From assembly GCF_013137895.1 (NCBI RefSeq), contig NZ_CP053538.1:4185001-4249000 (forward strand): a stretch of 64,000 nt of DNA. Direction: 5' to 3'. This document shows positions 12,011-64,000 of this stretch, piece after piece. The stretch comes from Hymenobacter taeanensis. Its GTDB lineage: Bacteria; Bacteroidota; Bacteroidia; Cytophagales; Hymenobacteraceae. The notes under the pieces are model-generated. The model did no database searches. It saw nothing but the letters and a program-made list of their open reading frames with translations, and had not been told where the DNA came from. Both the position numbers and the translations under genes were made by a program. The first letter of the stretch is position 1. The number at the start of each line of letters is the position of its first letter.

Positions 12011-12041
12011 TTTTCATCCTACCTTCCGGCGCGTACATTTG
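12011..12041 (+). promoter_or_regulatory. Histidine operon promoter
   Basis: TACATTTG at 12034-12041 is an exact TAnnTTTG -7 box. TTTT at 12011-12014 is 19 bases upstream, where the -33 element is expected. It lies about 60 bases before the His-rich leader ORF and about 340 before hisG. A weaker TACCTTCC sits at 12020. Confidence 0.6.
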
Positions 12042-12099
12042 CCTCGCTATTCAGCCCTTTATGCCCTTCAACGCGCTTTCTATCTGCACCCTTCGCCAC

Positions 12100-12180
12100 A
12101 TGGCCGCCCCCACGCTGGGCGCCCTGGCCGGGCTGCGCGCGGTGCATCATCATCTGCACGGGCATCATTCCTCTTTCTAG
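12100..12180 (+). CDS. hisL: Putative histidine operon leader peptide
   Basis: A 26-codon ORF starting ATG at 12100 and ending TAG at 12178-12180. Residues 16-23 read HHHLHGHH, six His in eight codons, placed between a promoter and hisG. This is the layout of a his attenuator leader, in which ribosome stalling at His codons under His starvation sets the fold of the downstream RNA. The ORF is too short for ordinary gene calling. I see the ORF, its composition and its position; the regulatory role is inference from the enterobacterial paradigm. Confidence 0.8.
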   Translation: MAAPTLGALAGLRAVHHHLHGHHSSF

Positions 12181-12287
12181 AGGAATATACGCATCATATT
12201 GACCCCGTTGGGCGAACCGCACCTGGTTCCCCGGCCCCCGAAACAGGTGGCCCCGGCCGTGTATGGCCGCTATACAACGTTGGGGTC
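12167..12287 (+). promoter_or_regulatory. Candidate attenuator RNA structures of the his leader
   Basis: Several nested pairings follow the His codons. A perfect 8-bp stem with TTCT loop (12167-12174/12179-12186) includes the leader stop codon. CACCTG/CAGGTG (12220-12225/12244-12249) and CGGCC/GGCCG (12254-12258/12265-12269) are possible inner stems. A long-range GACCCC/GGGGTC pairing (12201-12206/12282-12287), extended by GTTG/CAAC, encloses them. No clear poly-T terminator is visible, so control may act by another route than a classic intrinsic terminator. Confidence 0.5.
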
Positions 12288-12384
12288 TCCTTCGTATTAG
12301 TGCTGAAATTCCCTCACCAACACCGGACTATTATAAGCACCTACCGTTTGCTTAGCCGGTATCCGTCATTTCCCCCTTACCCGT

Positions 12385-13237
12385 ATGATTCGTCTTGCCA
12401 TCCAGAAATCGGGCCGTCTGAGCGAAGACTCCCTCAACCTGATTCGTGAATGCGGCATCAGCTTCCAGACCAGCTCTTACAAGCTCAAAACCGAAGCCAC
12501 CAACTTTCCCCTCGAAATCCTGTACCTGCGCGACGACGATATTCCCGGCTACGTGCAGGATGGTGTGGGCCGATTTGGGCATTGTAGGCCAGAACGTGCT
12601 GGTTGAAGCCGGCATGCCGGCACTGGAGTTGGAGCCGCTGGGCTTTAGCAAGTGTCGCCTGAGCTTGGCCGTGCCCCGCGCTGCTGGTTACGACTCAGTG
12701 CAGGACCTGCAGGGGAAGAACATTGCCACCTCGTATCCCCAGATTCTGGGCGACTACCTTGCGGAGCGGGGCGTGAAGGCAAACTTGCACACTATTAGCG
12801 GCTCCGTAGAAATTGCCCCCAGCATTGGGCTGGCCGAAGCCATCTGCGACATCGTGAGCAGCGGCTCTACCTTGCTGGGCAACGGCCTGCGCGAAGTAGA
12901 AACCGTGTTCCGCTCCGAGGCCGTGCTGATTGCCAACCAGAACCTGTCGGCGGAAAAGCGGGAGATTCTGGAGCAGTTGCAGTTCCGGATGCAGGCCGTG
13001 CGCCGCGCGCGCCGCAACAAATACATTCTGCTGAACGCGCCCACTGCCTCGCTGGATGCCGTGAAGGCGCTGCTGCCGGGCATTAAGTCGCCCACGGTGA
13101 CGCCGCTGGCCGAGGAAGGGTGGGTGTCGGTGCAGTCGGTGGTGAATGAAGATGACTTCTGGCACATCACAGGGCAGCTGAAAGCCGTAGGCGCCGAGGG
13201 TATTCTGGTGCTGCCGATTGAAAAGATGATTGCCTAA
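12385..13237 (+). CDS. hisG: ATP phosphoribosyltransferase HisG, frameshifted
   Basis: The first enzyme of histidine synthesis, joining ATP and PRPP. The frame from 12385 (MIRLAIQKSGRLSEDSL to DDDIPGYVQDGV) switches at a GGG run, 12567-12569, into a second frame continuing as ADLGIVGQNVLVE and running to 13237. One G too many explains the break; removing it gives a 283-aa long-form HisG with its C-terminal regulatory domain (YILLNAPTASLDAV, HITGQLKAVGAEGILVLPIEKM). Long HisG is normally feedback-inhibited by histidine. All other his genes are intact, so a sequencing error is the likeliest cause. Confidence 0.93.
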
Positions 13238-13353
13238 CGGCTGATAGGGTAGAAACTGGGTGGTGCAGCCTGCTGATAATGCAGCTGCCCACTTGGTTCT
13301 TTGCCTGAGTGCTATATCACCTTGTTAGACCCACCCAGAATCAGTTTTTCATT

Positions 13354-14652
13354 ATGCAAGTTTTTCAATATCCCGACCAGACGCAGTGGGCCGCGCTCCA
13401 ACAGCGAGCTGCGGCGCAGGAAGCGCAGGAAATAGAGCAGCGCGTGCTGGGCATATTTCAGGATGTGCGCCAGCGCGGCGACGCGGCCCTGCGCGACTAC
13501 GCCCAGCAGTTTGACGGTGTGCAGCTGCAGGATCTGCGGGTAACGCCCGAGGAGATTACGGCCGCCGTAGCCCAGGTGCCCGCCGAGCTGCAAACGGCCA
13601 TCCGGCAGGCCCACGCCAACATCTGGAAGTTTCATGCTAGTCAGCGGACAGAAGAGAAGCCCGTGGAAACGATGCCGGGCGTAACGTGCTGGCGCCGCTC
13701 GGTGCCGGTGCAGCGCGTGGGCCTCTATATTCCGGGCGGCACCGCCCCGCTGTTTAGTACCTTATTAATGCTGGGCGTGCCTGCCCGGCTGGCGGGTTGC
13801 CCGGAAGTGGTGCTTACCACGCCCCCCCAGAAAGACGGTTCCGTGAACTCCGTTATCCTGTTCACGGCCCAGCTCCTGGGCATTAGCACGATTATCAAAG
13901 CCGGCGGCGCCCAGGCAATTGCGGCCCTCACTGGCGGCACCGATTCAGTGCCCGCCGTGGATAAGATTTTTGGTCCTGGCAACCGCTACGTAACGGCGGC
14001 TAAGCAGCTGGCAACCCGCTACGGGGTGGCCATTGATATGCCGGCCGGTCCATCGGAAGTGCTTGTTATTGCCGATTCATCGGCTAACCCCGCGTTTGTG
14101 GCCGCCGACTTGCTCAGCCAGGCTGAGCACGGACCAGACTCCCAGGTGATCCTGGTTTCTGACTCCATGACCGTAATTGAGCAGACCCAAGCGGAAATTG
14201 AGCGCCAGCTGGCTACGCTGCCCCGGGCGGCCGTGGCCACGCAAGCACTCACCGAAAGCCGCGCCATTCTGCTGCGCACACCCGAAGACATGCTCTACTT
14301 CTCGAATCAGTACGCCCCCGAGCACTTGATTCTGGCAGTACAACATCCTGAGCAATTGGCGGAAGGCGTGACCAGCGCCGGCTCCGTGTTCCTAGGCCAC
14401 TACACACCCGAAGCGGCCGGCGACTATGCCTCCGGCACTAACCACACGCTGCCCACCAACGGCTACGCCCGCAATTACAGCGGTGTTTCCCTGGATTCCT
14501 TCCTGAAGAAAATCACTTACCAGCGCATCACCGCCGAAGGTCTCCTCAACGTGGGACCAGTAGTTGAAACCATGGCTGAGGCTGAAGGCCTCAGTGCCCA
14601 CGCCCGCGCCGTGACCTTACGCCTGGAAGCCGTAGCCAGCCAGCAACAGTAA
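13354..14652 (+). CDS. hisD: Histidinol dehydrogenase HisD
   Basis: Catalyses the last two steps, histidinol to histidine with two NAD+. A 432-aa protein with VQRVGLYIPGGTAPLFST, GPGNRYVTAAKQL, DMPAGPSEVLV and QAEHGPDSQ, the last holding zinc ligands. SAGSVFLGHYTPEAAGDY and NHTLPTNGYAR complete the family signature. The ATG at 13354 is chosen because the family homology starts there; the frame extends to 13309. It follows hisG by 116 bases. Confidence 0.96.
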   Translation: MQVFQYPDQTQWAALQQRAAAQEAQEIEQRVLGIFQDVRQRGDAALRDYAQQFDGVQLQDLRVTPEEITAAVAQVPAELQTAIRQAHANIWKFHASQRTEEKPVETMPGVTCWRRSVPVQRVGLYIPGGTAPLFSTLLMLGVPARLAGCPEVVLTTPPQKDGSVNSVILFTAQLLGISTIIKAGGAQAIAALTGGTDSVPAVDKIFGPGNRYVTAAKQLATRYGVAIDMPAGPSEVLVIADSSANPAFVAADLLSQAEHGPDSQVILVSDSMTVIEQTQAEIERQLATLPRAAVATQALTESRAILLRTPEDMLYFSNQYAPEHLILAVQHPEQLAEGVTSAGSVFLGHYTPEAAGDYASGTNHTLPTNGYARNYSGVSLDSFLKKITYQRITAEGLLNVGPVVETMAEAEGLSAHARAVTLRLEAVASQQQ

Positions 14653-14705
14653 CAACTCAAATCAGGTTTGTGCGGAGCAGCCTTCACCAGGTCCATAAGT
14701 GTCAG

Positions 14706-14740
14706 GGCCATTCCAGGCCTGGAACAAGCATGGAATGGCC
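14706..14740. repeat. Hairpin and repeat-like spacer between hisD and hisC
   Basis: GGCCATTCCA at 14706-14715 pairs perfectly with 14731-14740. The rest of the 138-base spacer ends in ATCCGTCTAAATCCGTGATC just before hisC, a phrase that looks like an intergenic repeat. No T-run follows the hairpin, so it should not stop transcription. Confidence 0.5.
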
Positions 14741-14790
14741 AGCTGAACAAAATCCGCGCACTCCTCAACATCCGTCTAAATCCGTGATCT

Positions 14791-15846
14791 ATGTTTGATC
14801 TGACCAGCCTCGTTCGCCCCAACATTCGGGCAATGAAACCCTACTCTTCGGCCCGCGACGAATTTCAGGGCGAGGCACATGTGATGCTCGACGCTAATGA
14901 GAACAGCCTGGGCAGCGCCGGTCCCGAGCGGTTCAACCGTTACCCCGACCCGCTGCAGCGCGCCGTAAAGACGGAACTGGCTAAGCTGAAGGGCGTGGCA
15001 GAAAACCAGATTTTCCTGGGTAACGGTTCCGACGAAGCCATCGACCTACTGGTGCGCCTGGTGTGCATTCCGGACCAGGACAGCATTGTGATTCTGCCGC
15101 CCACCTACGGCATGTACGAGGTAGCCGCCAACCTTAACGATGTGCGCATTGAGCGCCAGCCTCTCACCCCCGACTTTCAGATTTCCCCGGAAGCAATTAC
15201 TCAAATCGTAGCTTCCGACGCGAAAATCGTTTTCCTGTGTTCCCCCAACAACCCCACCGGCAACCTGCTGCATGCCGATGCCATTGAGCAGGTGCTGCGC
15301 GGCTTCCGGGGGCTGGTGGTGGTGGATGAGGCCTACGCCGATTTTGCGGCGGCTCCCAGCTGGACCACCCGCCTGGCGGAGTTTCCCAACCTGGTAGTGA
15401 TGCAAACGTTCTCCAAGGCCTGGGGCCTGGCCGGCTTGCGCCTGGGTATGGCTTTCGCCTCGTCGGAGGTAATCAGCTACCTCAACAAAATCAAGCCTCC
15501 TTATAATATATCGGAAGCCACGCAGCAGCATGCTCTGGCCGCCCTGCAGGATGCGCCCCGCTTCGAGCAGATGCGCCAGCAGCTCCTCATTGGCCGCGAC
15601 TGGCTGGCCGAGCGGCTGCCAGGGCTGAGCATTGTGGAGGAGGTATTCCCTTCGGATGCCAACTTCCTGCTGACGCGCTTCCGGCCCGATGCCACCGCCG
15701 TGTATGATTACCTGGTGGGCCGTGGCATCATCGTGCGCAACCGCACCACCCAGCCCGGCTGCGTGGGCACGCTTCGCCTGACGGTAGGCTCGCCCACCGA
15801 AAACAAAGAGCTGCTGCAGGCGCTGCAGGAATTTAAGGAAGCGTAA
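14791..15846 (+). CDS. hisC: Histidinol-phosphate aminotransferase HisC
   Basis: PLP-dependent transamination of imidazole-acetol phosphate with glutamate. A 351-aa fold-type I enzyme: ANENSLG near the N-terminus, [19 protein letters not shown] and the PLP-lysine motif [32 protein letters not shown] near the end carries the substrate-phosphate Arg region. Length and start fit the family. Confidence 0.95.
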
Positions 15847-15955
15847 TTTTCTGGGAGTGGCCTACGGAGCATCAACCTTGATTTCGTCGGCCACTCCTTT
15901 ACGTAACGTAGTACATCGACTACTCGCGCAGCTTTTGCTTGCGCCAACCAACCTC

Positions 15956-17068
15956 ATGAAAAAAGTACTCTTCATCGACCGCGACGGCACCATCTTGATC
16001 GAGCCGCCCACCGATTTTCAGGTTGACTCGCTCAGCCGCGAAAAATTTCAGTTTGTGCCCGGTGCCATTACTGGCCTAGCCCGCATTGCCCGCGAGCTGG
16101 ATTATGAGCTAGTGCTGGTGAGCAACCAGGATGGCCTCGGCACCGACAGCTTCCCGGAGGATACTTTCTGGCCGGCCCACACCATGATGCTTGACATTCT
16201 GCGCTCGGAAGGAGTGGAGTTCGTGCGTGAGCACATTGACCGGAGCTTCCCCCACGAGAACCTGCCCACGCGCAAGCCCGGCATCGGCATGCTGCAGCAG
16301 TATCTCGGTGAGGCAGCAGGGTATGACCTGCAACATTCTTTCGTTATCGGCGACCGGCTGACGGATGTGGAGCTAGCACAAAACCTGGGTTGCCAGTCTA
16401 TTTTGCTGAAGCCGGAAGGGGAGGAGGACGAGCGCGCTGCGTTGACTACTTTGAGCTGGGAAAAAATATACCAGTTTCTACGCCTGCCTGCGCGCACCGC
16501 GGTAGTACAACGCGACACGAACGAAACGAAAATCAGCATTGAGCTGAACCTCGACGGCAACGGCCGTCCGGCTATGCACACGGGTCTGGGTTTCTTTGAT
16601 CATATGCTCGACCAGCTCAGCAAGCACTCCGGTGTCGACATGAAAATCACGGTGCAGGGCGACTTGCACATTGATGAGCACCACACCATTGAAGATACGG
16701 CCATTGCTCTAGGCGAAGCCTTCACCCAAGCCCTCGGCGACAAGCGTGGCCTAGCGCGCTACGGGTTCTTACTACCCATGGATGATGTGTTAGCACAAGC
16801 CGCCATTGACTTCTCTGGCCGCCCCTGGATTGTGTGGGAAGCGGAGTTCAAGCGCGAAAAAATTGGGGATATGCCGACGGAAATGTTTTACCATTTCTTC
16901 AAGAGTTTCTCTGACGCGGCCCGCTGCAACCTTAACATCAAGGCCGAAGGACAGAATGAGCATCATAAGATTGAGGCAATATTCAAGGCAGTAGCCAAGT
17001 CAATAAAGATGGCTTTGATGCGTGATGCCGGCAAGATGGAAATCCCCAGTACGAAAGGCATTCTATAG
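15956..17068 (+). CDS. hisB: Bifunctional histidinol-phosphatase / imidazoleglycerol-phosphate dehydratase HisB
   Basis: A fused enzyme performing steps 7 and 9 of the pathway. The N-terminal HAD phosphatase domain (about residues 1-165) starts [13 protein letters not shown] with the DxDGT nucleophile. The C-terminal dehydratase domain (about 180-370) has [32 protein letters not shown] and [15 protein letters not shown], the His/Glu manganese ligands. The ATG at 15956 gives 370 aa, matching the fused form; the open frame reaches 15857. Confidence 0.95.
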
Positions 17069-17070
17069 TA

Positions 17071-17096
17071 TACCCATATGTTTAAACATATGGGTA
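17071..17096. repeat. Perfect 26-bp palindrome just after hisB
   Basis: The sequence reads identically on both strands over 26 bases, with half-site TACCCATATGTTT. It begins two bases after the hisB stop. A diverged copy is at 17194-17219. Such symmetry suggests a dimeric-protein operator; no regulator gene is adjacent. Confidence 0.75.
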
Positions 17097-17193
17097 ATGT
17101 TTTGATGCCGTGGTAATTGTGGTTCGTGCTCGATTGATACTAGCTTAAATGGGTTGTATGTGAAGTCAGCTACAATAATGCGAGCAGGTGCTT

Positions 17194-17219
17194 TATCCAT
17201 ATGTATAAACAAATGTGTA
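17194..17219. repeat. Diverged copy of the 26-bp palindrome, upstream of hisH
   Basis: Matches the 17071 palindrome at 22 of 26 positions, including CCATATGT and ATAAACA, and ends 28 bases before the hisH ATG. The two sites are 123 bp apart, start to start, in an AT-rich spacer. Confidence 0.6.
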
Positions 17220-17247
17220 AACCGGGAAATCCTCAATTTATATTCAA

Positions 17248-17838
17248 ATGGAAATAGCCGTAATTGATTACAAAGGAGGTAACGTTCAGTCGGTAATTTT
17301 TGCGTTGGAACGCTTAGGAGTGCAAGCAACTTTAACGGCCGATCATGACGTGATACGTCGGGCCGACAAGGTGCTTTTTCCTGGTGAGGGCGAAGCTGCC
17401 TCGGCCATGCGTGAGCTCCAGGCGCAAGGGCTTGATAAGCTATTGCCCACGCTTACTCAACCCTTCCTGGGTATATGCCTGGGCATGCAGTTGCTAGGCC
17501 AGCATAGCGAAGAAGGCGGTGGTACTGATTTACTCGGTGTCCTGCCGTTTGACGTGGTACGTTTTCCGGCGTCGGCCGAGTACAAAGTTCCGCACATGGG
17601 TTGGAACACTTTGAGCCAACTTCGCTCTCCGTTATTTGCCGGGCTTCAGGAAGAAGACTACGTGTACTTTGTGCACAGCTACTATGCTCCCGTAGGCCAG
17701 TATACCATTGCCCAGGGGCAGTACCCCACACCGTTCAGCGCGGCCGTGCAGCATGAGAACTTTTATGCCGTGCAGTTCCACACGGAAAAGAGCAGTACCG
17801 TGGGCACACGCATCCTGGAAAACTTTCTGAACCTGTAA
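17248..17838 (+). CDS. hisH: Imidazole glycerol phosphate synthase glutaminase subunit HisH
   Basis: Hydrolyses glutamine and channels ammonia to HisF. A 196-aa class I amidotransferase with nucleophile Cys77 in GICLGMQLLG and the His/Glu pair in VQFHTEKSS near the C-terminus. HMGWN and HSYYAP are HisH-specific. It follows a 179-base AT-rich spacer holding two palindromic sites, unlike the other his junctions. Confidence 0.95.
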   Translation: MEIAVIDYKGGNVQSVIFALERLGVQATLTADHDVIRRADKVLFPGEGEAASAMRELQAQGLDKLLPTLTQPFLGICLGMQLLGQHSEEGGGTDLLGVLPFDVVRFPASAEYKVPHMGWNTLSQLRSPLFAGLQEEDYVYFVHSYYAPVGQYTIAQGQYPTPFSAAVQHENFYAVQFHTEKSSTVGTRILENFLNL

Positions 17839-17933
17839 TACTGGAAGTGGGGTGATAAAGTAAAGAAGCTTAGGGCTTAGACTCTCAATGCTTTTGTCTC
17901 TTCATCCCCTCACCACTTCATCGCTCAACCAAC

Positions 17934-18650
17934 ATGGAAATAATCCCCGCCATAGACCTGATAAATGGCCAGTGCGTACGCCTCACCGAAGGCGACTTCG
18001 CCCAGCAGACCACCTACGACTCTGACCCGTTGGCCGTGGCCCAGCGCTTTGAGCAGCACGGTGTGAAGCGCCTGCACCTGGTAGACCTGGACGGTGCCCG
18101 CGCCAAACGCCCCGTCAACCTGCCCGTGCTGGAGCGCATTGCCCGCCATACTGGTTTGGTAGTGGACTACGGCGGTGGCCTGCAAAGTGACGAAGCCCTG
18201 CGGCAGGCTTTCGGGGCGGGCGCTACCCAGATTACGGCGGGCAGTATTGCCGTGCGGGAGCCGGAAACTGTCAACAACTGGCTACAAACCTTCGGGGCCG
18301 AGAAGATCATTGTAGGGGCTGACTTCCGTGACAATCATATTTCCATCAACGCCTGGGCGGAGCAGAGTGAACGCACCCTGCAGGAGTTTCTAGGCCAGTA
18401 CCTGAGTGCCGGAGCTACTACCTTTATCTGCACCGATGTAAGCAAGGATGGTAAGCTGCAAGGCCCGGCCCTGGACACGTATCGGGAGCTGCGGCAGGCG
18501 CTGCCGGCCGCCCGCCTCATTGCCAGCGGCGGCGTCACGACGATTGCCGACGTGGAGGCGTTAGCGCAAATCGGCATGCACGGCGCCATTATTGGCAAGG
18601 CCATCTATGAAGGCACCATCATCCTCGACGAGCTTAAAAGCTGGCTGTAA
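17934..18650 (+). CDS. hisA: ProFAR isomerase HisA
   Basis: Amadori isomerase opening the ribose of ProFAR to PRFAR. A 238-aa TIM barrel starting MEIIPAIDLINGQCVRL, with catalytic Asp in AIDL and in CTDVSKDGKLQGP, and phosphate loops at DYGGGLQ and ASGGVTT. Length and start are standard. The stop is 19 bases from hisF. Confidence 0.95.
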   Translation: MEIIPAIDLINGQCVRLTEGDFAQQTTYDSDPLAVAQRFEQHGVKRLHLVDLDGARAKRPVNLPVLERIARHTGLVVDYGGGLQSDEALRQAFGAGATQITAGSIAVREPETVNNWLQTFGAEKIIVGADFRDNHISINAWAEQSERTLQEFLGQYLSAGATTFICTDVSKDGKLQGPALDTYRELRQALPAARLIASGGVTTIADVEALAQIGMHGAIIGKAIYEGTIILDELKSWL

Positions 18651-18669
18651 CTGTTGACCTCACAACTCT

Positions 18670-19428
18670 ATGCTGACTAAAAGAATCATTCCCTGCCTCG
18701 ATGTGAAGGATGGCCGCACCGTGAAGGGCGTCCGGTTTGAGGGCCTGCGCGATGCCGGCGACCCAGTGGCACTGGCGTCGCGCTACGCTCGCGAAGGTGC
18801 CGATGAGCTGGTGTTTTTGGATATTACCGCCACCAACCAGAAACGGGCTACGCTAGTGGCTCTGGTGCGTGACGTGGCCCGGGAGCTGGATATTCCGTTC
18901 ACCGTGGGCGGCGGTATTGGTACTGTTACGGATGTGGAAGCGCTGCTGCTGAACGGGGCCGACAAAGTCAGCATCAACTCGGCGGCGCTGGCGCGGCCGG
19001 AGCTAATTGACGAGTTGGCTGCCCGGTTCGGAAGCCAGTGCATTGTGGTGGCTGCTGATGCCCGCTACAATGACGCCGATGGCTGGCAGATCTACACCCG
19101 CGCCGGTACTAACAACACCGGCCGCAATGCTGTGGAGTGGTGCCGGGAAGCAGCGGACCGTGGCGCCGGCGAAATCCTGCTGACCTCCATGAGCAACGAC
19201 GGCACCAAGGATGGCTTTGCCCTGGATATCACGGGCGCCGTGAGCCGGGCGGTAACTATTCCGGTGGTGGCCTCGGGCGGGGCTGGCTCCAAGCAGGATT
19301 TCACCAATGTATTCCAGCAGGCCTACGCCGATGCAGGCCTGGCCGCCAGTATCTTCCACTTCGGGGAAATCGGCATCCGGGAGCTGAAAGAGCACCTGCG
19401 CCAGGACGGCATCCCCGTTCGATTATAA
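18670..19428 (+). CDS. hisF: Imidazole glycerol phosphate synthase cyclase subunit HisF
   Basis: Forms imidazole glycerol phosphate and AICAR from PRFAR and ammonia supplied by HisH. A 252-aa TIM barrel beginning [20 protein letters not shown], with Asp in [28 protein letters not shown] and VASGGAGS. All catalytic positions are present. Confidence 0.96.
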
Positions 19429-19492
19429 TTTTTGAGAGATGAGGTGTTGAAGTGATAGGGTGAAGTGTAGTACTCTCTTAACCTGTCTTTCT

Positions 19493-19524
19493 ATCACCTC
19501 ATCACCTCATCACCTCATCACCTC
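19493..19524 (+). repeat. 8-bp tandem repeat (ATCACCTC x4) between hisF and hisIE
   Basis: Four exact copies of ATCACCTC in a row, then a partial copy. The start of the same spacer (around 19438) has the complementary GATGAGGTG, so the RNA can fold back. Similar CCTCACC/CACTTC text lies before hisA. No protein frame uses it. Confidence 0.85.
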
Positions 19525-19539
19525 ATCATCATAAAATTG

Positions 19540-20178
19540 ATGGATTTCGCCAAAATGCCCGATGGGCTAATACCCGTAATTGTGCAGGATGCTCAGACGG
19601 GGCAGGTGCTGATGTTGGGCTACCAGAACGAGGAAGCCCAGCGCGTAACGACTGAAACGGGCCGCGTCACGTTCTTTTCGCGCTCTAAGCAGCGCCTCTG
19701 GACCAAGGGCGAGACCAGTGGCCATTACCTCACTGTGGTGAGCCAACACCCCGACTGCGACCAGGACGCCCTGCTGATTCGGGCCATTCCGGATGGGCCT
19801 ACCTGCCACCGCGGTACCACCAGTTGCTTCGAGCAGGTTGAGCAGAGGGCTTACCCAACGGCGCCGGTGGGTTTCATTGCCGAGTTAGAGCGCCTGGTGC
19901 AGCGCCGCCAGCAATTCCCCGACGAGGACCCGAAGTCTTACACGGTTTCGCTCTTTAAGAAAGGTATGCCGAAAATCGCCCAAAAAGTGGGAGAGGAGGC
20001 CGTGGAAACCGTTATTGATGCCGTTGGGGGCAACATCGAAGGCCTTAAAGGAGAAGCTGCCGATTTGCTTTACCATTTGGTGGTATTGCTCACGGCATCC
20101 GGCCTGACCCTGGAAGATATTGTGGCGGTGCTGCGTCAGCGCCATACTACTATTTCCGGGGGAGTGCGCCGGGAGTAG
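19540..20178 (+). CDS. hisI: Bifunctional phosphoribosyl-AMP cyclohydrolase / phosphoribosyl-ATP pyrophosphatase HisIE
   Basis: Performs steps 2 and 3 of the pathway. The HisI part (about residues 1-105) has the zinc motif DCDQDALLI and GPTCHRGTTSCF. The HisE part (about 115-212) has SLFKKGMPKIAQKVGEEAVETVIDA and ADLLYHLVVLL, a MazG-like helical fold. A TTG three bases upstream could also start it; the ATG at 19540 is used (212 aa). It is the last gene of the operon, followed by a terminator. Confidence 0.95.
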   Translation: MDFAKMPDGLIPVIVQDAQTGQVLMLGYQNEEAQRVTTETGRVTFFSRSKQRLWTKGETSGHYLTVVSQHPDCDQDALLIRAIPDGPTCHRGTTSCFEQVEQRAYPTAPVGFIAELERLVQRRQQFPDEDPKSYTVSLFKKGMPKIAQKVGEEAVETVIDAVGGNIEGLKGEAADLLYHLVVLLTASGLTLEDIVAVLRQRHTTISGGVRRE

Positions 20179-44274: not shown

Positions 44275-44347
<73 letters not shown>

Positions 44348-63857: not shown

Positions 63858-63898
63858 GCCCATAGTTCTTTGTCTGCTTATTCCAGTCAGACGAGCGG

Positions 63899-64000
63899 CA
63901 GGTGTTTGGCTTCGGCCAGAATGAAAAGGGAACCGGGTGCAACTCCCGGACAGACGCGCTACTGTAAGTAACCATCAGCCAGTGCTTTCCAACTACGGCC
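63899..64000 (+). promoter_or_regulatory. Cobalamin riboswitch (5' part, cut by the window end)
   Basis: The sequence shows the cobalamin-aptamer core in order: CAGGTGTTTGGC, then AAAAGGGAACCGGGTGCAAC, CTCCCGGACAGACGCGCTACTGTAAG split over the junction, and CAGCCAGTGC. These match the conserved GGGAA, GxCCxGCxACTGT and B12-box regions. The controlled gene lies past 64000. Genes under this switch usually encode B12 transport (TonB receptors) or B12-independent isozymes. Confidence 0.88.

Follow-up and report, generated by a model that had tools for sequence, protein, structure and literature searches.

A conserved histidine-rich leader with a hairpin over its stop codon upstream of hisG in Hymenobacter

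The his operon of Hymenobacter taeanensis is preceded by a leader RNA that encodes a short histidine-rich peptide and carries a hairpin over the stop codon of that peptide. The first-pass annotation of the window (the whole stretch of DNA that was analysed, 64,000 nucleotides long) had described such a leader; comparison with relatives confirms the observation as far from chance and extends it to what appears, from sequence, to be a conserved regulatory RNA specific to hisG. A histidine-sensing leader peptide 5' of a Bacteroidota his operon is strongly supported, since the His run occurs on the sense strand only, uses a mixture of CAT and CAC codons, follows a promoter box, precedes an operon, and is conserved. 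A lack of histidine is very probably sensed by way of a stalling ribosome. Amino-acid attenuation is a textbook form of RNA control, yet it is little described for Bacteroidota in the literature found. The comparison also yields a conserved RNA missing from Rfam, and an initial map of the three kinds of his leader seen in the phylum. The cell also offers a natural comparison between two leaders with shared sensing logic, the trp leader with a terminator and the his leader without one, and the locus could show whether leader-peptide control in Bacteroidota uses a non-intrinsic output, for example Rho.

Genomes and locus

The hisG loci from named genomes are the best 80 of at least 557 relatives. 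HisG was found in 118 of 120 genomes of the genus (the other two being G006 and G097, the latter 81% complete), in 56 of 119 of the class, and in 112 of 148 of the order, and sequence was taken for only part of the HisG-bearing genomes across genus, class and order. Together with the window, 270 loci make up a set of 271 regions. In 252 of these the start of hisG was located, giving 229 distinct regions, and 19 had no start by the pattern used.

The source genome of the window is one contig of 4.88 Mb, and its operon consists of eight his genes (Table 1). The closest named relative among the matches listed is Hymenobacter fodinae, with 98% identity in HisG over 213 residues. The hisG frame of the window is interrupted at a run of G where relatives such as L001 read through, through either a sequencing error or a true mutation. 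HisG is likewise in two pieces in two other Hymenobacter genomes (G061 and G062).

Table 1. Features of the his leader and operon, in window coordinates
Feature	Position	Strand	Basis and remarks
TACATTTG, TAnnTTTG promoter box	12034..12041	+	window sequence; conserved in group
Leader peptide ORF, 39 aa, MPFNALSICTLRHMAAPTLGALAGLRAVHHHLHGHHSSF and stop	12061..12180	+	conserved start ATG 12061
His run HHHLHGHH	12145..12168	+	last His codon 12166-12168
P1 stop hairpin	12167..12186	+	ATTCCTCT 12167-12174 / AGAGGAAT 12179-12186, 8 bp
CATATTG	12195..12201	+	CATAT(T/C)G in 48/48 aligned Hymenobacter leaders
P0, probable long-range stem	12201..12287	+	12201-12210 with 12275-12279 and 12283-12287; closes domain
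P2 stem	12211..12231	+	12211-12218 with 12225-12231; 5/8 pairs changed on both sides
P3 stem	12233..12252	+	12233-12239 with 12246-12252; 3/7 pairs changed on both sides
P4, short possible stem, weakly supported	12255..12268	+	12255-12258 with 12265-12268; 73% of cells paired
hisG, operon gene 1	12385..13237	+	ORF and NCBIfam; frame broken near 12567-12569
hisD, hisC, hisB, hisH, hisA, hisF, hisIE	13309..20178	+	ORFs and NCBIfam

The leader peptide and its promoter

It had been claimed that a 26-codon ORF with HHHLHGHH lies between an exact TAnnTTTG promoter and hisG. That ORF is present, from an inner in-frame ATG at 12100 to the TAG at 12178-12180, but the conserved start lies further upstream, so that the peptide has 39 amino acids. 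It ends in HHHLHGHHSSF, with six His among its last eleven residues. The exact box is present as described. The box, which we take to be of the Bacteroidota promoter type, is found upstream of 59 of the 62 stop-hairpin leaders of the Hymenobacter group, where 1.6 would be expected, and the other three have no exact box. In each of the 59, an ATG in frame follows 16-25 nt after the box and opens a peptide of 36-44 amino acids. A TTG 18 nt 5' of the box was seen in 11 of the 62 leaders; the window has no TTG at this spacing. A promoter downstream of the leader was also considered, and was rejected because the box occurs between leader stop and hisG in only one of the 62; nothing points to a promoter 3' of 12180.

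A short sense-strand ORF with at least four His within 10 residues lies 5' of hisG in 87 of 92 distinct Hymenobacter-group regions and in 62 of 137 others. By the same criterion, the antisense strand gives 0/92 and 0/137, and shuffled sequences 14/1145. Ala is frequent in Hymenobacter short ORFs as well, nearly equally so in antisense (76/92 sense vs 59/92 antisense), and Pro is frequent but rarer in antisense (61/92 vs 20/92). In all 62 Hymenobacter-group leaders the last His codon is CAT, its A and T belonging to the hairpin P1, and the remaining His codons are a mixture of CAT and CAC, as would be the case if it is the peptide that matters. A short ORF with a run of cognate codons upstream of the operon, as in leader-peptide attenuators, thus appears to be in place. 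A second short ORF after P1 was rejected, its frame not being conserved (L002).

The hairpin over the stop codon

The perfect 8-bp hairpin that had been drawn over the stop codon is there. P1 begins in the last His codon, and the stop codon spans its loop into the 3' arm; a hairpin directly after the regulatory codons is also a feature of classical attenuators. The leader RNA of the window is predicted to fold more stably than every one of 100 shuffles (z -3.2). Among 149 His leaders, 77 have a P1-like hairpin of at least 7 bp, starting at the last His codon and spanning the stop, compared with 401 of 14900 controls in which the 40 nt 3' of the stop were shuffled. A looser scan (at least 5 bp, stop enclosed or touched) finds 96 of 229 regions and also 547 of 3000 shuffles, so short stems alone carry little weight. 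Manual curation removed 14 of these 96 script matches, which were weak or belonged to classical leaders. The remaining stop-hairpin set, called type 2 below, comprises 82 of the 229 regions, 62 from Hymenobacter and Solirubrum and 20 from others; L043, L062, L073 and L115 resemble it, but escaped the script and stand outside the 82.

Within Hymenobacter, P1 is nearly invariant (one compensated pair in 48 leaders), and since it hardly varies there, its covariation inside the genus says little. In distant relatives the two arms have changed together, as in CACTCC/GGAGTG (L052 and L072), ATCTCTC/GAGAGAT (L064) and TGGCTCTCT/AGAGAGCCA (L186). L052 and L072 are also minimal: just the His run and P1 remain, and roughly 70 nt of AU-rich RNA follow.

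Stems downstream of the stop codon

P2 and P3 covary in Hymenobacter leaders. Of the 62 leaders in the Hymenobacter group, alignment A1 comprises 48 (L014, L020, L040 and near-copies were omitted), and in it 93.6% of the cells of P1-P3 are paired, against at most 58.7% when the structure is slid. An alignment of Hymenobacter hisG upstream regions had been proposed as a check on the leader, and a lack of conservation of His run or stems as grounds for dropping it; both are conserved.

The long-range stem P0 is less uniform. For the strand that follows CATAT, the best partner is found 72-78 nt further downstream at z < -1 in 33 of 59 leaders, and 37 of 59 have a partner with z < -1 anywhere (mean z -1.69). 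Compensatory changes are few, with C-G for A-U in three leaders and U-A for C-G in one, in a sequence-anchored count over 30 leaders selected for the 3' motif; within alignment A3, no P0 pair is changed on both sides. For the whole structure in A3, further pair types are not above shuffles (426 of 500 as high), and the other four measures exceed them. It is probable that P0 is real in part of the group. A sequence resembling CATAT(T/C)G is also seen in Pontibacter and Belliella, with no role found. A pause site between CATATT and G, with G at -10, was rejected by eye as not conserved.

Distribution and leader types

A covariance model of P1-P3 matches 66 of 120 Hymenobacter genomes, once per genome, in a search whose filters may lose weak matches. 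All 66 matches share contig and strand with hisG and precede the HisG domain by 210-276 nt. In the order sample the model matches 8 of 148 genomes, six of which belong to Hymenobacter. Rfam (4227 families including His_leader) has no match in the leader region, whether at gathering score or at E up to 5.

The His leaders fall into three types. Type 1, a His leader with a U-tract terminator, is found in Chitinophaga, Allomuricauda and many other genomes of the class; as an example, L065 has its hairpins in the classical order, legible by eye. Type 2 is the window's own. Type 3 belongs to other Hymenobacter (HHHHHLWEAGLCAGC and relatives), where 24 leaders could be aligned; here too a large hairpin spans the stop codon, its 5' end lying immediately 3' of the last His codons. 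The type-3 pattern fits 24 of 30 other Hymenobacter regions. By eye, L031, L039, L089 and L131 are type 3, L115 is type 2, and L112 is neither. In some Cytophagales no His leader was detected by the ORF scan. Arg/His-rich leader-like ORFs (FRHRRHHRG) were seen 5' of hisG in Spirosoma and relatives (L054, L245 and L251).

A quick HisG tree (149 rows) shows the type labels clustered, with 8 changes for type 2 (48.2 when shuffled) and 2 for type 3 (18.1 when shuffled); 57 of the 145 inner branches of this tree are weak, and L043 was manually given the type-2 label, whereas L062 and L073 were not. The type-1 relatives are complete classical attenuators, which suggests a sensing logic that is ancestral, or shared across the phylum.

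Terminators in the his, trp and ilvD leaders

The absence of an evident poly-T terminator, which had been remarked on at the outset, was borne out. In the window leader no U-tract terminator was found by a first scan (0, with 0.9 in shuffles) or by a laxer score. Between leader and hisG, a strict scan for a hairpin and U-run finds 4 of 82 type-2 leaders, vs 40 of 61 other His leaders, and two of these four matches are P1 itself, in AT-rich relatives. By the laxer score, terminators are assigned to 79% of the other His leaders (3% in shuffles), 29% of type-2 Hymenobacter (11%), 20% of other type-2 leaders (0%) and 53% of the remaining Hymenobacter (42%). As the laxer score is above shuffles in type 2, individual species or one subclade may possess such a terminator.

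Within the genus, the trp leader is different. A GC hairpin with a U-run is found by the strict scan over 400 nt in 23 of 24 trpE loci, and a Trp-rich leader ORF in all 20 of those loci with a gene start. The window's own genome has such a Trp leader (QAWWWPLGNSGRDSLCVR) with a classical terminator before trpE (L285, near 3526291), so the lack of a terminator 5' of hisG is not genome-wide. The suggestion that the his switch may work differently from the classical one is backed by the missing terminator and by this contrast with trp. In front of ilvD, Ile/Val-rich leaders (e.g. ISVVIILTLTG) occur in 3 of 14 loci (L314, L315 and L316) and form a hairpin, followed by a T-run, that the strict scan does not report; in the other 11 loci no Ile/Val leader was seen.

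A ribosome-based sensor and its possible outputs

The comparative evidence covers the His run, the box, P1 and the covarying P2 and P3; from these sequence features we infer the stalling, the response of expression and the output. Our reading, which we think somewhat probable as far as the sensor and a non-intrinsic output go (Rho is judged apart), is that the 5' leader senses histidine by means of the ribosome. Transcription from the promoter at 12034 would give a leader RNA of about 340 nt, on which ribosomes would translate the 39-residue peptide with its His run near the end. When charged His-tRNA is scarce, the ribosome would stall on the His run, and with the last His codons occupied its front edge would lie over the P1 5' arm and block P1. 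With ample histidine, it would reach the stop inside P1 and depart, and P1 would fold. Starvation would in this way raise his expression. The output may be early Rho-dependent termination of the untranslated leader RNA, which a ribosome stalled on the leader, or the opening of P1, would avert. As a single choice of output, termination that needs no intrinsic terminator, most likely through Rho, ranks first, yet clearly below an even chance, and nothing in the leader points specifically to Rho. Control of mRNA stability ranks next and would be rather unlikely, and a weak hairpin terminator without a U-run comes after it, less likely again.

The stalling logic that had been proposed at the outset thus fares well on the side of sensing, where a histidine-sensing leader peptide is supported, and poorly on the side of the switch, where P1 lacks a specific partner and the hisG start is unaffected in silico. 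No downstream partner for the P1 3' arm exceeds shuffles (mean z +0.7, with 2 of 82 below -2). With the 5' arm masked, the 3' arm is predicted to pair downstream at a mean probability of 0.62 (27 leaders), which we read as unspecific. The mean predicted probability of P0 is 0.64 with P1 formed, 0.70 with the ribosome on the His codons and 0.67 with the ribosome at the stop, and thus there is no ribosome-dependent change on average over 27 leaders; strong shifts are seen singly in L003, L114 and L010. Around the hisG start (-20..+15) the mean unpaired probability in silico is 0.616, 0.612 and 0.622 in the three states, computed on every second type-2 leader (41 of 82), and access shifts by more than 0.15 in one of the 41. 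With no P1 partner, a steady mean P0 and unchanged access to the hisG start, neither a classical switch nor start-codon control is supported.

How far do these results leave room for other explanations? It is unlikely that the leader is a classical attenuator in which a hairpin of the P0-P4 region terminates without a clear U-run and is switched by the ribosome. There are GC-rich hairpins 3' of P1, the laxer terminator score is above shuffles, and in a subgroup (L011, L018, L143 and others) a short T-run follows a GC hairpin, all in favour of it. But the U-run is not conserved, T is barely raised after the P0 3' arm (2.4 of 8 vs 2.0 expected, in 26 leaders), P1 has no partner, mean P0 is steady across ribosome states, and the trp leader shows how terminators look in this genus. 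Less likely still would be control of stability, with the stalled ribosome shielding the mRNA and termination unaffected. The minimal relatives L052 and L072, with only the His run and P1, would fit it in that a terminator is unnecessary there; the classical relatives, however, control termination.

The domain P0-P4 could also be a separate sensor of a protein or small molecule, so that the operon has two inputs. CATAT(T/C)G next to covarying stems, invariant in the 48 aligned leaders, points that way, as does a domain fold that is on average independent of the ribosome's position, but P0 is present in just 33 of 59 leaders, the minimal relatives lack the domain, and Rfam has no match, which leaves this reading improbable. 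Control of the start codon is known for other leader peptides. A precedent described in the available part of one study (topAI/toiL, PMC12121999) would suggest that leader structures open and close the hisG start here too; the start is equally open in the three ribosome states, so closing by leader structures was rejected, and we regard this reading as very improbable. CATATTG pairing with the hisG start is not beyond shuffles on average (mean z -0.18), the start being among the best 10% of windows for such pairing in 22% of 74 leaders. Base composition was tried as a sign of Rho and is unspecific, the leader having C > G and the same being true before trpE. A T-box (UGGG), which would have a tRNA-binding stem I with specifier and UGGN bulge, was rejected: the GGG after CCCC is not kept as TGGG in Pontibacter, and Rfam has no match.

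Relation to known leaders

In the hisL attenuator of enterobacteria, translation of the leader switches between terminator and antiterminator. The Hymenobacter leader resembles it in having a His-run peptide directly 5' of hisG and a hairpin beside the His codons. It differs from hisL in its lack of a conserved U-tract terminator and of a B:C partner, in the position of the hairpin over the stop, and in having no Rfam match; neither an intrinsic terminator in the window nor an antiterminator pairing of the freed P1 3' arm was found. The type-1 leaders of Bacteroidota are alike in the leader peptide before hisG and the hairpin after the His codons, and differ in the U-tract terminator (40/61 other His leaders). 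The Hymenobacter trp leader differs from the his leader by its textbook terminator in 23 of 24 loci. On these sequence comparisons Cytophagales could hold a distinct attenuator class, with the sensing hairpin around the leader's own stop and an output that relies neither on an intrinsic terminator nor on sequestration of the start codon; its counterpart in other Bacteroidota would be the classical his attenuator, and a classical trp attenuator would operate alongside it within one cell. We put this forward tentatively, at just short of even confidence.

Leader ORFs linked to Rho are known from tna and mgtL/corL. With these and topAI/toiL the his leader shares the possibility that the ribosome's position decides Rho action. 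As described in the part of the paper available, toiL acts via the ribosome-binding site (PMC12121999), and no such effect is seen at hisG in silico. Leader peptides without terminators, for which Rho has been proposed, are described for cys operons of Mycobacterium in the available part of another paper (PMC1262725). These are alike in the cognate-codon peptide, the absence of a terminator hairpin and the proposal of Rho; they differ in being Cys leaders of Actinobacteria, and in that no conserved hairpins are reported in that part of the text, whereas P1-P3 are conserved here.

Within Bacteroidota, the available part of a study of Flavobacterium psychrophilum reports leader-peptide attenuation 5' of operons for amino acids, as well as a 5' element of hisG, uncharacterised but conserved in Flavobacteriaceae (PMC9723704); going by relatives (L063), our guess is that this element is a type-1 leader. 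For Bacteroides thetaiotaomicron there is mention of short ORFs that resemble leader peptides (PMC7366714), and for bacilli of His leaders (PMC2965389), in the available parts of those papers. In the available text of a his-gene study of the same superphylum (PMC8305728), 'leader' is absent and 'attenuat' occurs once, about enterobacteria. No description of the stop-hairpin type was found in the literature searched, mostly without subscription papers, and one may be in print. Elsewhere in the window there is a tRNA gene at 44275-44347, and the start of a cobalamin riboswitch at 63883-64000, truncated by the window end.
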